Below, one piece after another: positions 27,764 through 63,022 of a DNA stretch of 64,000 nt. The translations under genes and the position numbers were made by a program. Where the stretch lies: the NCBI RefSeq assembly GCF_000271665.2, contig NZ_CP010978.1, positions 5,290,501-5,354,500 on the forward strand, in the 5' to 3' direction. The notes below the pieces were generated by a model. That model made no database searches. It was not told where the DNA came from and was given only the letters and a program-made list of their open reading frames with translations. How positions within the stretch are numbered: position 1 is the first letter of the stretch; every line of letters begins with the position of its first letter. Origin of the DNA: Pelosinus fermentans JBW45. GTDB lineage: Bacteria; Bacillota; Negativicutes; DSM-13327.

Positions 27764-28625
27764 TTGGCTACCAAGAAAAACAGATAAGCCCAAACGCCAC
27801 AATAACCAGGGCAGCATTTACTATGATGAAGCCACAAAAAAATATAGAGCTGCCATTACTACGGAAGATGGCAAGCGTACCAGTAAACGTTTTGAAACGG
27901 AACCTGAGGCAGAAGATTGGGTAGCTTTAAAACGTGCTGAGATGGGATTAGGCACCTTCATTGCGCCATCAGAAGTTAAGCTAGGATCATCTATGGCAGA
28001 ATGGTTAGAAACACACATCGTATATATGGCTGTCGTTAATGGCGTTCGAATGAGTGAACTTTTCGGGCTGCGTTGGATGGACGTGCAAGGTAATACTATT
28101 TCCATTCGTCAAGGTTTGCATATGACAGAAGCGTGTGAATTTATTTTCGAAGGGCCGAAGAGTGTCGCAGGTAAAAGAAAAATATCTTTACCTCCTGAAT
28201 ATATCCCTATATTAACCGAACACAAGACAAGAGCCGAGAAAAAGAACCCCGATGCCTTTATCGCTGAATCTCTTGTCTTTACCTCTTTAGAAGGAACACC
28301 TGTAAATCCTCAAAACTGGCAACGCTTCTGGCGCAAATTATTACACCAGGCAGGTGTAGACCATAAGAAATTCCATGCCCTGCGTCATACCCATGCTACT
28401 AAATTATTAGCGGCCAGAATGCCACTCATGGACGTAAGCCGTAGACTTGGACACTCCAAGCCATCACACACCTTAGATTTATATGGACATGCTATGCCAG
28501 GGCAAGATGATGTAATCGCAAATTCAATCGGACATATCTATAATCTGGCAGATAAAAAGAAAAAACCCGCCCTTAGATTAGGCAGAAAATTAAAGAGAAA
28601 AATAACAAAAGACGGACTTCCATAA
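27764..28625 (+). pseudogene. Tyrosine integrase gene with frameshift and internal deletion
   Basis: A TTG with AAGGAG upstream opens MATKKNR, then one extra T causes a stop. The next frame carries the integrase N-terminal domain (GSIYYDEATKKYRAAITTED to SSMAEWLETHI), then joins directly to the catalytic domain at VYMAVVNGVRMSELFGLRWM. The catalytic Arg, HALRHTHAT box, LGHSKPSHTLDLYGH and Tyr are intact to the stop at 28625, but the core-binding (SAM-like) domain between them is deleted. Its position beside the intact tRNA-Gly copy is typical of such integrases. It is most likely inactive. Confidence 0.85.
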
Positions 28626-28645
28626 TAGGAAATCCGTCTTATTTT
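28608..28645. terminator. Terminator overlapping the integrase stop
   Basis: AAGACGGACTTCC pairs with GGAAATCCGTCTT (one mismatch) and is followed by a T-rich stretch. Confidence 0.75.
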
Positions 28646-28714
28646 AAACTGATTTTAGCCTCGTTGCACCATGTTGACCACTGTACAGGATTGCACCACA
28701 CGCTAAAACCCGCT

Positions 28715-28766
28715 AATTTACTGGAGCGGGTGAAGGGATTCGAACCCTCGACCCACGGCTTGGGAA
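28715..28766 (-). repeat. Right attachment repeat within the tRNA-Gly gene
   Basis: This is the partner of 21881-21932: 52 bp with two differences. It spans the 3' flank and 3' half of the intact tRNA-Gly gene. Together the repeats define a 6.8-kb integrated element. Confidence 0.8.
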
Positions 28767-28796
28767 GCCGGTACTCTACCACTGAGCTACACCCGC
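28722..28796 (-). tRNA. tRNA-Gly (anticodon CCC)
   Basis: The minus strand begins GCGGGTG and ends CACCCGC-T-CCA, giving a full acceptor stem with encoded CCA. D arm, T arm (GGTTCGAATCC) and the anticodon loop TTCCCAA are present, reading CCC. It is the intact integration target of the element to its left. Confidence 0.95.
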
Positions 28797-28959: not shown

Positions 28960-29566
28960 CTAAACCTTAAACTTAACAATTTCCAATTGCAGTTTTTCAG
29001 CTAATTGTGATAATGCGTCACTGGCAATAGCAATTTCTTCAATGGATGCGGTTCGTTCTTCTGTGGAGGCTGATACCGTCTGCGTCTTGCTCGCAGTTTT
29101 ATCGCTAACCCCGTCCAGTACTTCCATGGATGATGCCACCTGCTTTGCTCCTTCTGCTATATCGTGAATTGCAGCGACGGCTCTTTGAATCTCATCAGTT
29201 ACGTGGTTTACTAATGTAGCAAATTCACCAAAAGTATCTCCTGTTGCATTCATATTTTCCGTTACCGCCAATGTACCTTCATCCATCGCATGTACCGCTT
29301 TTTCAACCATCACTGCCGTAGCGCATTTTACTGATCACTTCTTTTGCTCTTTCTTGCGCTTCTTGATCTGCCATCACACCGGACTTAGAAAGGGTGTAAT
29401 AATATTCTACGGTGGAATGTGCTATTTCTACATTATTTTTTATTTGAATGTCCTTTTGCAAATAAATGTTTTCTTTTGTTTTAGGAATGATATAAAAGCA
29501 ACTTATGAGAACAAATAATATTGTGGGTATTACACTTAATAACATTAATTTTTTGTTTAATTTCAT
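28960..29566 (-). pseudogene. Truncated methyl-accepting chemotaxis protein gene
   Basis: The 5' part (29303-29566) encodes a membrane anchor and the beginning of a Cache-type sensor (MKLNKKLMLLSVIPTILFVL ... MADQEAQERAKEVISKM). The 3' part (28960-29313), in another frame, encodes only the last methylation helix of a chemoreceptor (VEKAVHAMDEGTLAVTENMN to QLEIVKFKV). Most of the sensor, the second membrane helix, HAMP and the CheA-binding hairpin are missing, so a large internal deletion with a frameshift has occurred. It overlaps the diguanylate cyclase stop as ATGA and was part of that c-di-GMP-controlled operon. Confidence 0.85.
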
Positions 29567-30627
29567 ACTATGATTCCTCTCCCATTGACTTCAAAAATGT
29601 CTAGTTCATCAATCCTCGAAGTAACTTTATTTTTTCCGGTTATTTTACTTTGGTACATGGCACGATCCGCCTGCTGTAAGAGTTCAAAGACGGTATCACC
29701 ATCTTCTGGAAAACAAGATATGCCAGCACTAAAGGTAATATGATTTTCGCTGTTGCCTCTTCCTATAAAGGTACTTTTCTCAACGCTTTTTCGTACTTTA
29801 TTAGCAAATGCTACGGCCTTTTTTTTATTAGTATGTGGGGCTAGTATTACAAATTCTTCTCCGCCAAACCGTCCTATGGAATCTGATTTTCTACAACTTT
29901 TCTTTAAGATTTTTGCAAAGTCACACAAAAGCTTATCACCTAGAAGATGCCCATGAGTATCATTAAACATTTTAAAATTATCGATATCAATAAAAATTAC
30001 ACTCATCGCGCTAGAATATCTTTTTGACAATAATAATGTTTTCTCGAGTACTGAGTTTAAAGCATTCTTATTATAAATTTGTGTTAGATAATCATACATC
30101 GCCTGTTGCTGTAGTGAATTAACTAATTTTACAATCTTTATGGCTTCACTAGCTTGTAAACCAAACATATTCAAGAGAAATACTTCTTGTTCTGTAAAGG
30201 GCTCTACCTTTTTTCTCATGACAGTGATAGCTCCCGTGCTGCTTTCCTTCCCCTTTAATGGTACACATACTATAGATCGTATCCCTTCCTTATTAGCAAG
30301 TCCGCTAGTATTCCATTCTATCGCTTGAGATATATCGCTATGTATATAAGGCTTACTTTCCGATACGACACAGCCAATTACCCCCTCCTCAAGACGAATC
30401 GGGGGTTCATTGATATAGCTTTTTGAAAGTCCATAACTTTTTACAATTGTAAGGTGTCCGCTTACAAGATTAAAATCTCTAATTACAACTGCGTCAGCTC
30501 TTGTAATAGTAAGAGCTGTTTTGGCAATATAATCCCATATATCATCCACTCCATCGTAGCTCGATAGGCGTTGTGAAATGAAAAATATTTTTTCCAGAAT
30601 CTCCTCACTAGGTAAGGTACAAAGCAT
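29563..30627 (-). CDS. GAF-GGDEF diguanylate cyclase
   Basis: The 354-residue protein has an N-terminal GAF domain (about 15-165) and a C-terminal GGDEF domain with active-site GGEEF and an RxxD inhibitory site (RKSD) five residues before it. It should therefore make c-di-GMP from GTP with product inhibition. No membrane segment is present, so it is a cytoplasmic sensor. It lies downstream of a c-di-GMP-I riboswitch and a 49-codon gene, and overlaps the chemoreceptor pseudogene; c-di-GMP therefore probably feeds back on this operon. GGGGTG precedes the ATG. Confidence 0.93.
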   Translation of the reverse strand: MLCTLPSEEILEKIFFISQRLSSYDGVDDIWDYIAKTALTITRADAVVIRDFNLVSGHLTIVKSYGLSKSYINEPPIRLEEGVIGCVVSESKPYIHSDISQAIEWNTSGLANKEGIRSIVCVPLKGKESSTGAITVMRKKVEPFTEQEVFLLNMFGLQASEAIKIVKLVNSLQQQAMYDYLTQIYNKNALNSVLEKTLLLSKRYSSAMSVIFIDIDNFKMFNDTHGHLLGDKLLCDFAKILKKSCRKSDSIGRFGGEEFVILAPHTNKKKAVAFANKVRKSVEKSTFIGRGNSENHITFSAGISCFPEDGDTVFELLQQADRAMYQSKITGKNKVTSRIDELDIFEVNGRGIIV

Positions 30628-30721
30628 CTCTTACACCCCTAAATCCCTATACTTCTTTGCTATTGACCAGCCCGGCGAATGGGTAGGCTACGATGCGAAG
30701 AAAGTGAAAATCCCCATAGCA

Positions 30722-30871
30722 TCAAGTTTTCTTTGCATCTGGAATATCATTAATAACTAGCTGTTCTTTATTAATTGCTTTAATATCTTGGAGAATCTCA
30801 AAAATATCACAAATTAGTTCATCTAATTCCTTTCCAATATCACCAATTTCCAAATTCTCCTCTTCTTTCAT
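30722..30871 (-). CDS. Small acidic protein under riboswitch control (49 aa)
   Basis: GAGGGGGA precedes an ATG opening 49 codons (MKEEENLEIGDIGKELDELI, then a helical middle and VINDIPDAKKT). The chain is strongly acidic and helical. No family is recognised. It is the first gene after the c-di-GMP-I riboswitch terminator and lies 94 nt before the diguanylate cyclase gene, so it is probably a partner or regulator in c-di-GMP signalling; this is inference from position. Confidence 0.65.
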   Translation of the reverse strand: MKEEENLEIGDIGKELDELICDIFEILQDIKAINKEQLVINDIPDAKKT

Positions 30872-30888
30872 AAAAAATCCCCCTCAAT

Positions 30889-30932
30889 ATAAAAAAACCG
30901 ACAGGTACATCAAATAAACATGATGCAACCTG
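30889..30932 (-). terminator. Terminator of the c-di-GMP riboswitch
   Basis: On the minus strand CAGGTTGCATCA pairs with TGATGTACCTG, followed by seven T. Its 5' arm uses the same bases as the 3' edge of the aptamer, so aptamer folding and termination are mutually exclusive; ligand binding should allow read-through. Confidence 0.8.
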
Positions 30933-31001
30933 GCAGTCATAGAACAATTGTATCGTTAGACCCAAGGCTTTGCGTCCCTGCCTTTCGGCAGGTTTGCTTA
31001 T
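30924..31001 (-). ncRNA. Cyclic-di-GMP-I riboswitch (GEMM-I)
   Basis: The minus strand contains the GEMM-I core: GCAAACC, a stem with GAAA tetraloop, GGGACGCAAAGCC, then GGGTCTAA and a closing GCCAGGTTGC segment. The tetraloop, its receptor and the ligand-binding bases are all recognisable. It precedes a small gene, a diguanylate cyclase and a chemoreceptor remnant on the same strand. With the overlapping terminator it is most likely a transcriptional ON switch. Confidence 0.95.
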
Positions 31002-31165
31002 AATTCTAATGTATAGCTGTTCATGTCATTTTGCGATGTATGCTAGTTTTCTGATGGAAATATTTGACGAAAATTAGAATTACACTACTATTGGCTACTC
31101 TATAAGTATAGTCTAGTAGTAAGGGATATTCTATTATCTCCATAAGCTAAATTTCCAATAAAAAA

Positions 31166-31204: not shown

Positions 31205-32785
31205 TTAATTTGCTTTAATAACTTGATTTACAAGGCGCAATTTCAGAGCTACTCCAAGGGCGAGTCTTGTCTCAAAAGAATCAAGGGATACTCCTAATAT
31301 TTTTTCAATACGCTGCTTGCGAAAAACAACTGTTTTGGGGTGCAGAAACATTTTTTCCGCAGTCTTTTTTAAATTGGAGTGCTGCAATATCTCCTCTAAG
31401 GTGGTTACAAGGTTGGTTCCCTTTTCTTCGTCATAACGAATAAGAGTACCAATTTGCTCTTTAACAAATTCCTTTGCACCTTCATTACCAATATTTTTAA
31501 CTAAAAGCTGTAAAATTCCTAAGTCTTTATAATGAAAAATACCATCTTCCTTGCCTTGACATTGTGCCGCCACGGTAGCACTCCATCCTTGCCAGTAAGT
31601 CTTCCTAACACTATTTAAGCCTGTTTGTACATTACTAATTCCAAGCACGAGTTTTAGTTGAGAATCATATTGATAAATCTTCTCTAGTAACGCATGAGCA
31701 AACATCATACTGCTTTCCACTGTTGCGTATTCGACGTTCCCCCCTTGATATAAAACGCCTATATCATTTCTACAATTCCATACAATGCAGCCTTTCTCAT
31801 TCCCCAACACTTCAATAATATTATTCTGTTCTTTTTCCCTGCCAATAAAGTCCTTGCAAACTAATAAACAACAAATTAGGGGACGAGAAAAATCCAACCC
31901 TAATGTATGCATATAATCTTTTATTCTTTCATCTACGCTGGTAGTTCCCATTACGATATCATTTAAAAAATCACTTCTGCGTCTAAGTTCATAGGCTAAG
32001 TGAAGCATTTTCTCGGTTTTTCGTTGAACTGTAATATCATGTAAGGTACCCAAGGTACCGGAGATATTCCCATATTGATCCTTTGTAAGTCGAGCATATA
32101 CCTCGATCCAGCGAAATTCACCATTTTTAGTAGAATAACGAATTTCATACCGACTATATGACCGTTTCTCTTCGATTATGGATTGGAACTGTTTATAATG
32201 AAATTCCTGATCATCTGCATACACATAATTCAAAAAAAATTTTCCGATACTTTCCTCTATCGTAAAACCTGTAATCCTTGTCCATATAGGACTTAAGTAA
32301 GTCCAACATCCTGCTTTATTTGTTTGAAATATGACACCTTTTACATTATCAATAATTGCTTTATGCTTCTTCTCTAAATACAGCAGCTTACTTTCTAGGT
32401 TATCAATATATTTTACTAATTCTGTATTGCTCAATTTATATTGTTTTCCTGCCTCTTTATCAAAGGGCTTTTCTTTTAATTGATTTCCTTTTTCAAGAAT
32501 AGAAGCATCCTGAGAGATTATCGTTTGATAAAAATAGGGGAATAGTACACTCTTTCCGATACCTAACTCACGTATGATTTTTTCATAGTTATGATGTAAA
32601 ATAGCCGCTTCACGTTTGAATTCTTCAGTAAGAACCTTTTTTACATTTCCCAAAGATATGTCCCTCCCCGTTGTGATACTATGTTCTCTTGAATTAGCAA
32701 CCATTCCTGTCTCGACCAGCCCTACAAGTATTTTAACTGTATCTAGCCAATCTCCCTTTCTTATCGTAAGGTAAGAATCAGCCAT
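31205..32785 (-). CDS. PAS-domain transcriptional regulator with PucR-type helix-turn-helix
   Basis: The 526-residue protein has an N-terminal helical region, a PAS domain with PAC motif at about 140-260 (ITGFTIEESIGKFFLNYVY, FRWIEVYARLTKDQYGN), a degenerate GGDEF-like CdaR domain at about 300-410, and a C-terminal HTH_30 (LKKTAEKMFLHPKTVVFRKQ, about 470-500). Proteins of this build (CdaR, PucR) activate catabolic genes in response to small molecules; the PAS domain suggests a redox or ligand signal. The ribosome site is weak. No obvious target operon is adjacent except the chemoreceptor upstream. Confidence 0.85.
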   Translation of the reverse strand: MADSYLTIRKGDWLDTVKILVGLVETGMVANSREHSITTGRDISLGNVKKVLTEEFKREAAILHHNYEKIIRELGIGKSVLFPYFYQTIISQDASILEKGNQLKEKPFDKEAGKQYKLSNTELVKYIDNLESKLLYLEKKHKAIIDNVKGVIFQTNKAGCWTYLSPIWTRITGFTIEESIGKFFLNYVYADDQEFHYKQFQSIIEEKRSYSRYEIRYSTKNGEFRWIEVYARLTKDQYGNISGTLGTLHDITVQRKTEKMLHLAYELRRRSDFLNDIVMGTTSVDERIKDYMHTLGLDFSRPLICCLLVCKDFIGREKEQNNIIEVLGNEKGCIVWNCRNDIGVLYQGGNVEYATVESSMMFAHALLEKIYQYDSQLKLVLGISNVQTGLNSVRKTYWQGWSATVAAQCQGKEDGIFHYKDLGILQLLVKNIGNEGAKEFVKEQIGTLIRYDEEKGTNLVTTLEEILQHSNLKKTAEKMFLHPKTVVFRKQRIEKILGVSLDSFETRLALGVALKLRLVNQVIKAN

Positions 32786-51168: not shown

Positions 51169-51206
51169 AAAAAAGCCTGCAGGCCCTCTAAGGTCCCGCA
51201 GGCTTT
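51169..51206 (-). terminator. Terminator of the NiCo riboswitch
   Basis: On the minus strand AAAGCCTGC pairs with GCAGGCTT, followed by six T. Its 5' arm overlaps the 3' part of the aptamer, so metal binding should prevent termination. Confidence 0.8.
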
Positions 51207-51262
51207 AATACATACCTGCTGCTTTCCGCCCGGCTGCGCCATGATGACCGCCTGTTCCTAGC
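51188..51262 (-). ncRNA. NiCo (czcD) riboswitch
   Basis: The minus strand carries the conserved NiCo segments in order: ACAGGC, GCGCAGCCGGGC, GAAAGCAGCAGG, then GCCTGCGGGACC, with flanking CTAGG and CCTTAG able to close the outer stem. The known NiCo aptamer has the same GCAGCCGGGC and GGGAC junction bases. It lies upstream of a CDF exporter, its usual target, and overlaps a terminator. TATAAT-like sequence just upstream may be its promoter. Confidence 0.88.
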
Positions 51263-51351
51263 ATTATATTATATATAGTACCACATTAGGAATTTGCTTG
51301 TAAATATCTTTTATGGGTTGATTCTTAAAGAACATGACAGGCAAGCTTAGT

Positions 51352-61942: not shown

Positions 61943-63022
61943 TTACATGACTTTTAACAATGAGCTCAAATCAGAAGTACAGATTTCGCCATTAGGACAT
62001 CCAATTAAATTTCTACCGCTATCCTTAGCATTATATAAAGCATCGTCTGCAATCTTAAAGAGTTCTTCTGCTGTTTTAATTTTCTCATCACCAATCCCAT
62101 AGCCAATGCTAACAGTAACATGTAGTTCCGTTTCATCTCCAAAATGAAAGGCATGTTGTTCTATGTTATTGGAAATCCTCAAAGCGGCAGCTTGTATTTC
62201 CTGTTCATTGTTGCATTGCAGTATAACTGCAAACTCCTCCCCCCCATAACGAAAAATCATATCCCTCTCCCGCAAACTATTTTTTAGCACGATAGCGATA
62301 TCCCGCAGTACAGCATCACCACATAAATGCCCATACGAATCATTAAAAACTTTAAAATAATCTACATCAAGAAGTAATATTGCTATGTTACTAGGTTGCA
62401 TTTCATTTAGTCTTTGCCTAAAGGATCGATAATTATATAAATTTGTCAATTCATCTTTTTCTGCCAAACTACTAACCATCTTATAAGAAGATTCCATCTG
62501 ATTTAATAATTGATTAACCTTTTCGCTTTGGGAAAGAGCGCGCCCCTCTAGTTGAGATAAGTGTTGAACTAATACATTCATATTAATAATAAGCAGCGAA
62601 TGCATATATATGGATAACCTATTTTCTACAATCCCTTCTGCCTGACTCAGGCTAACTGCAATGTATATACAGGAAATAAGCATGGATCCAATTAACGAAT
62701 ATCTAGGATTATATTGTAGGGCGATCTGTACGGCATAGAAATAAAATAATATTGTTGCCATAGAATCCGGTGTATGCCAATATAAGTATCCCAGTACAGC
62801 ATTTGTAGCAATAAAAGAAAGAATCTCATAATAGATACTCCGTCTATCGATAGAAAAGGCAATCAATATTCCATATATTACCATCGCCATGCCATAGAGA
62901 GAAAGCTGATCATTGGATTCATCCGGTGCTTTTGTAAGGACTAAAGCCAAACAAAAAGCTAATGTAATAACATTTGCAACAAATACAATCCGTACCTTCC
63001 TATACGTTTTTTCTTCAAACAT
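61943..63022 (-). CDS. Membrane diguanylate cyclase (GGDEF)
   Basis: The 359-residue protein has about six N-terminal membrane helices (residues 10-160), a short coiled linker (VNQLLNQMESSYKMVSSLAE) and a C-terminal GGDEF domain with active site YGGEEF and an RxxD inhibitory site (RERD) just before it. It should make c-di-GMP and be product-inhibited. The membrane part has no recognised family. AGAGGG precedes the ATG. It lies upstream of the amidase gene on the same strand, 60 nt away, and might be co-transcribed with it. Confidence 0.93.
   Translation of the reverse strand: MFEEKTYRKVRIVFVANVITLAFCLALVLTKAPDESNDQLSLYGMAMVIYGILIAFSIDRRSIYYEILSFIATNAVLGYLYWHTPDSMATILFYFYAVQIALQYNPRYSLIGSMLISCIYIAVSLSQAEGIVENRLSIYMHSLLIINMNVLVQHLSQLEGRALSQSEKVNQLLNQMESSYKMVSSLAEKDELTNLYNYRSFRQRLNEMQPSNIAILLLDVDYFKVFNDSYGHLCGDAVLRDIAIVLKNSLRERDMIFRYGGEEFAVILQCNNEQEIQAAALRISNNIEQHAFHFGDETELHVTVSIGYGIGDEKIKTAEELFKIADDALYNAKDSGRNLIGCPNGEICTSDLSSLLKVM

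Follow-up and report, generated by a model that had tools for sequence, protein, structure and literature searches.

The closest described relatives of the riboswitch considered here are the class I c-di-GMP switches (c-di-GMP-I, or GEMM-I; Rfam RF01051) and the GEMM-Ib cGAMP switches of Geobacter (Gmet_0970, pgcA, and pilM). In the latter, A20 is the cGAMP-selecting base, and the A20G change alone shifts Gmet_0970 from cGAMP to c-di-GMP; the natural Ser/Thr (Hypr) GGDEF enzymes have GGDE[F/Y] exclusively (PMC6456294). The pilM switch is ON: its aptamer 3' strand lies in the terminator, which sequesters C75, the equivalent of C92 (PMC9262584). For Vc2, a crystal structure of the G20A mutant has been deposited (3MUM). 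Secondary sources describe that mutant as binding cGAMP (PMC7288161; 4YB1 in PMC6274999), and a simulation study gives mutants at G20 and C92 a higher Kd than the wild type (PMC9049102). Positive feedback on the c-di-GMP level is a property of the trigger-type circuits of E. coli (PdeR/DgcM and PdeL; PMC5052742); these are protein-mediated, whereas the loop proposed below for the soil bacterium Pelosinus fermentans JBW45 would be RNA-mediated and act in cis.

The window, i.e., the whole stretch of DNA analyzed, comprised 64,000 nt of P. fermentans JBW45 (contig NZ_CP010978.1). On its minus strand, a PAS-PucR regulator is followed, after a gap of 196 nt, by the aptamer, its terminator, a 49-residue ORF, a GAF-GGDEF cyclase, and a broken chemoreceptor (Table 1). 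The order of regulator, aptamer, small ORF, and cyclase is conserved in five of the eight Pelosinus genomes compared, among them P. propionicus DSM 13327 and a P. fermentans assembly. The first-pass annotation had placed the operon at 29563-31001; the locus is real, but that interval makes the aptamer 7 nt too short and omits the chemoreceptor remnant. A TTG ORF (30840-30965) overlapping the region was taken as spurious because its frame runs through the aptamer. A promoter-site scan and inspection found no confident promoter upstream of the aptamer. A promoter between the switch and the cyclase, bypassing the former, had been named as the case that would count against the original proposal; it found no support, as promoter-like sites were at chance level (15 found vs. 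16.2 expected), despite which an internal operon promoter may exist. Because the fold of the ~95-nt gap between the small ORF and the cyclase differs in P. propionicus (in an alignment without genome G007), we do not propose a further conserved RNA element there. Elsewhere, the window contains a NiCo riboswitch match (51189-51269, minus strand; 43.2 bits vs. a gathering score of 37) and a second GGDEF protein (62009-62461, minus strand; a 365-aa frame).

Table 1. Features of the cyclase operon and its upstream neighbor (window positions)
Feature	Position	Strand	Evidence
PAS-PucR-type regulator, upstream neighbor	31205..32785	-	Pfam PAS_3, HTH_30; synteny kept
c-di-GMP-I (GEMM-I) aptamer, A20 variant	30921..31008	-	Rfam RF01051; alignment across five Pelosinus genomes
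Ligand-discriminating nucleotide (Vc2 G20; model position 11), A not G	30998	-	Rfam alignment
Expected C92-equivalent, in terminator 5' arm	30925	-	Column mapping, inferred
Intrinsic terminator and U tract; 5' arm formed by the aptamer 3' strand	30891..30936	-	Folding energy, shuffles
49-residue small protein gene, first in operon	30722..30871	-	Kept in 5/8 Pelosinus genomes
GAF-GGDEF diguanylate cyclase (GHLLGD, GGEEF, RKSD I-site)	29563..30627	-	Pfam; motifs; PDB match
Chemoreceptor (sCache_2 MCP) pseudogene	28960..29566	-	Intact 570-aa MCP at equivalent place in four relatives

The aptamer matches RF01051 over the full length of the model (positions 1-87; 74.8 bits, E = 7.5e-13, against a gathering score of 35 bits) and is thus a member of the c-di-GMP-I family, membership of which does not need a G at the specificity base G20. 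To call it a textbook GEMM-I aptamer, as was done originally, is right except at one base: the equivalent of Vc2 G20, which by Vc2 numbering we take to be model position 11, is an A. The mapping also draws on the J1/2-P2 description (PMC6274999) and on the A found in that column of the Geobacter copies. The C92-equivalent, which is expected to pair with the second ligand base, was placed from the Rfam columns and the J1/3 G74-C75 description (PMC6274999). Otherwise, the context is canonical: the whole secondary structure, the G-C/C-G junction pairs, the GAAA loop and its receptor, and the A47- and C92-equivalents are as in RF01051. All five orthologues of the cyclase-operon switch have the A.

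A binding-pocket base that departs from the consensus could mean that A20 abolished ligand binding and left a decaying element or a constitutive terminator, and in JBW45 decay has already reached the chemoreceptor gene downstream. We judge this very unlikely, as the aptamer and terminator are nearly invariant over five genomes whose cyclases diverge up to a dS of 0.76, and A20 recurs with the remaining core motif intact: a search pattern combining A20 with the canonical context matched 59 sites, spread over 30 of 380 Negativicutes genomes (13 genera), and its reversed control matched nothing in the same 380.

The terminator (CUGCCAGGUUGCAUCA-loop-UGAUGUACCUGUCGG-U7; -16.4 kcal/mol, z = -5.2, with 0 of 200 shuffles equally stable) overlaps the aptamer as originally claimed: its 5' arm, CUGCCAGGUUGCAUCA, shares 18 nt with the aptamer 3' strand and includes the predicted C92-equivalent. 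The stem is kept across five genomes via one-sided changes, and in P. propionicus it pairs without a mismatch. The lowest-energy structure of the full-length sequence forms the terminator but not the aptamer junction; by folding, the two structures are mutually exclusive, as in a transcriptional ON riboswitch. Whether feedback would be positive or negative had been left open. Since the terminator uses the aptamer 3' strand, ligand and terminator should exclude each other, and the architecture points to an ON switch, hence to positive transcriptional feedback. The sign is not to be assumed from the class, because every class I switch tested in C. difficile is OFF (PMC6200980). That precedent, together with the clearly separate terminators of 5 of the 14 c-di-GMP-I switches in JBW45 (6 of the 14 are ON-type by the terminator-overlap criterion), would favor an OFF switch, in which ligand promotes termination and feedback is negative. 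There is only a slim chance of this at the cyclase operon, where 18 nt of the aptamer are taken up by the terminator, the predicted fold holds the terminator without the junction, and neither a separate terminator nor an anti-terminator was found.

The first gene had been described as encoding an unknown, small acidic protein; the gene is genuine and is retained within the genus. The 49-aa ORF has GAGGGGGA upstream, and its product has a net charge of about -8 by direct count. Across the five genomes that have it, dN/dS was 0.11-0.42, and between JBW45 and P. propionicus codons 12-31 encode an identical protein with five synonymous changes, both of which indicate that the gene is evolving as a protein, under selection. 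AlphaFold2, run on five sequences, models it as helical, with one helix at residues 9-41 (confident for residues 11-30). Searches with the protein in Pfam (best E = 0.08, chance-like), NCBIfam, and PHROGs and among plasmids and viral contigs gave no match, and no homologue beyond Pelosinus was confirmed among 380 Negativicutes genomes; by these searches it is restricted to the genus. Weak Negativicutes matches (best E = 0.002) sit inside open frames of ~1060 aa.

The predicted GAF-GGDEF cyclase was confirmed by Pfam (GGDEF, E = 4e-45; GAF_2, E = 2e-11). It bears the canonical diguanylate cyclase signature (GG[DE]EF, Asp at the base-selecting position, and an RxxD I-site, here five residues ahead of GGEEF), and its dN/dS among Pelosinus orthologues is 0.06-0.12; the G007 copy has a stop codon after the GGDEF domain. 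Among PDB sequences, the cyclase domain is nearest to the Hypr GGDEF of Geobacter metallireducens (6d9m, E = 1.6e-35), but 6d9m has Ser with GGDEF, whereas the JBW45 enzyme has Asp with GGEEF. As the Ser/Thr enzymes have only GGDE[F/Y], the JBW45 cyclase should make c-di-GMP, and its RxxD inhibitory site is likely to act as a brake on feedback.

The chemoreceptor remnant reported previously is a broken sCache_2 MCP, its start ATGA-overlapped with the cyclase stop; one reading frame contains the sCache_2 start and another the MCP tail. JBW45 has an internal deletion of ~1.1 kb that is out of frame, with its junction near 29307, where there is little homology. In the four relatives, the operon includes a whole chemoreceptor gene; its loss, by deletion, is confined to JBW45. 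A phage-type integrase fragment (27942-28796) lies beside a tRNA gene (28725-28796), and the sequence of the relatives differs beyond it; this site is likely the boundary of an integrated element adjoining the operon.

The proposal that c-di-GMP controls its own maker holds insofar as a cyclic-dinucleotide aptamer precedes a cyclic-dinucleotide synthase, but with A in place of G at the specificity base, the identity of the ligand is less secure than originally stated. The JBW45 switch shares A20 and the ON architecture, with a terminator on the aptamer 3' strand, with the Geobacter GEMM-Ib switches (PMC6456294, PMC9262584). It could be a sensor of 3',3'-cGAMP, or of both cGAMP and c-di-GMP, placing the cyclase under a second dinucleotide and not only its own product. 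The A at the position that sets GEMM-Ib selectivity, the cGAMP binding described for G20A Vc2, and retention of the A in all five cyclase-operon orthologues and in all four orthologous switches of a PRC-barrel gene favor this. We nevertheless consider it improbable. The complete JBW45 genome has no Hypr GGDEF, all of its full GGDEF domains having Asp, and no SMODS nucleotidyltransferase (CD-NTase) was found in the eight Pelosinus genomes; in the Geobacter positive control, GEMM-Ib switches occurred alongside two Ser/Thr GGDEFs. The Geobacter copies also combine A20 with a CU..GG junction pair and loss of the GAAA receptor, whereas the JBW45 aptamer has G-C/C-G pairs, not C..U/G..G, and keeps its receptor. 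Moreover, orthologous Pelosinus switches alternate between A and G (3 A/5 G in a chemoreceptor cluster, 2 A/6 G in an HD-GYP cluster), as expected if the ligand were unchanged. The A20 aptamer thus most likely still senses c-di-GMP, and by analogy with Vc2, A20 probably lowers its affinity. One switch of Geobacter sp. AOG1 (L199) combines A20 with GC junction pairs of the canonical type and is intermediate between GEMM-I and GEMM-Ib.

The 14 c-di-GMP-I elements of JBW45 precede chemoreceptors, a Flp pilus operon, an agr-like operon, genes for an HD-domain protein and a GGDEF-EAL protein, and others. Over the eight Pelosinus genomes, the G20-equivalent of 93 elements is G in 72, A in 19, and U in 2; the two U variants, both in P. 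propionicus (L269 and L275), precede a chemoreceptor-like gene and an uncharacterized secreted-type protein. A further JBW45 A20 switch (L018; 5264206-5264292), ON-like but with a weak terminator, precedes the agr-like quorum-sensing operon. Among the first genes behind the A20 pattern sites in Negativicutes are likewise those for chemoreceptors, Flp pili, and canonical cyclases, and all seven cyclases checked for motifs have Asp. ON-like A20 switches stand before canonical cyclases in P. propionicus and four other Negativicutes genera (G013, G187, G020, and G325/G331); two further A20 switches before cyclases (L339 and L371) have separate terminators. The A20 genomes were picked by pattern for A20, and the G20 background is from Pelosinus only, so no enrichment before cyclases is claimed. 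It is conceivable, if rather doubtful, that Negativicutes harbor a subclass of A20 ON switches in canonical GEMM-I context, either cGAMP sensors with an unrecognized synthase or low-affinity c-di-GMP sensors for self-amplifying cyclase loops.

From the aptamer, its overlapping terminator, the operon and its conservation, the cyclase motifs, and A20, all observed directly, we infer a ligand, antitermination, feedback, and a brake. We consider it reasonably probable that an A20 GEMM-I transcriptional ON riboswitch drives an operon of the small protein and a canonical cyclase, joined in relatives by a chemoreceptor. In the unliganded RNA, the terminator would capture the aptamer 3' strand and transcription would halt ahead of the first gene. 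With ligand bound, most likely c-di-GMP, and at an elevated level given the weaker binding expected of A20, the aptamer would keep its 3' strand, the terminator would be blocked, and the operon would be read. The cyclase would then add c-di-GMP in a positive feedback that product inhibition at the I-site would hold in check. Standard c-di-GMP-I annotation hides the change of specificity base, which in Pelosinus is to A in 19 of 93 copies and to U in two. If the proposal is correct, c-di-GMP would be amplified in cis through a riboswitch that governs its synthase, a compact positive-feedback design present in several Negativicutes genera.
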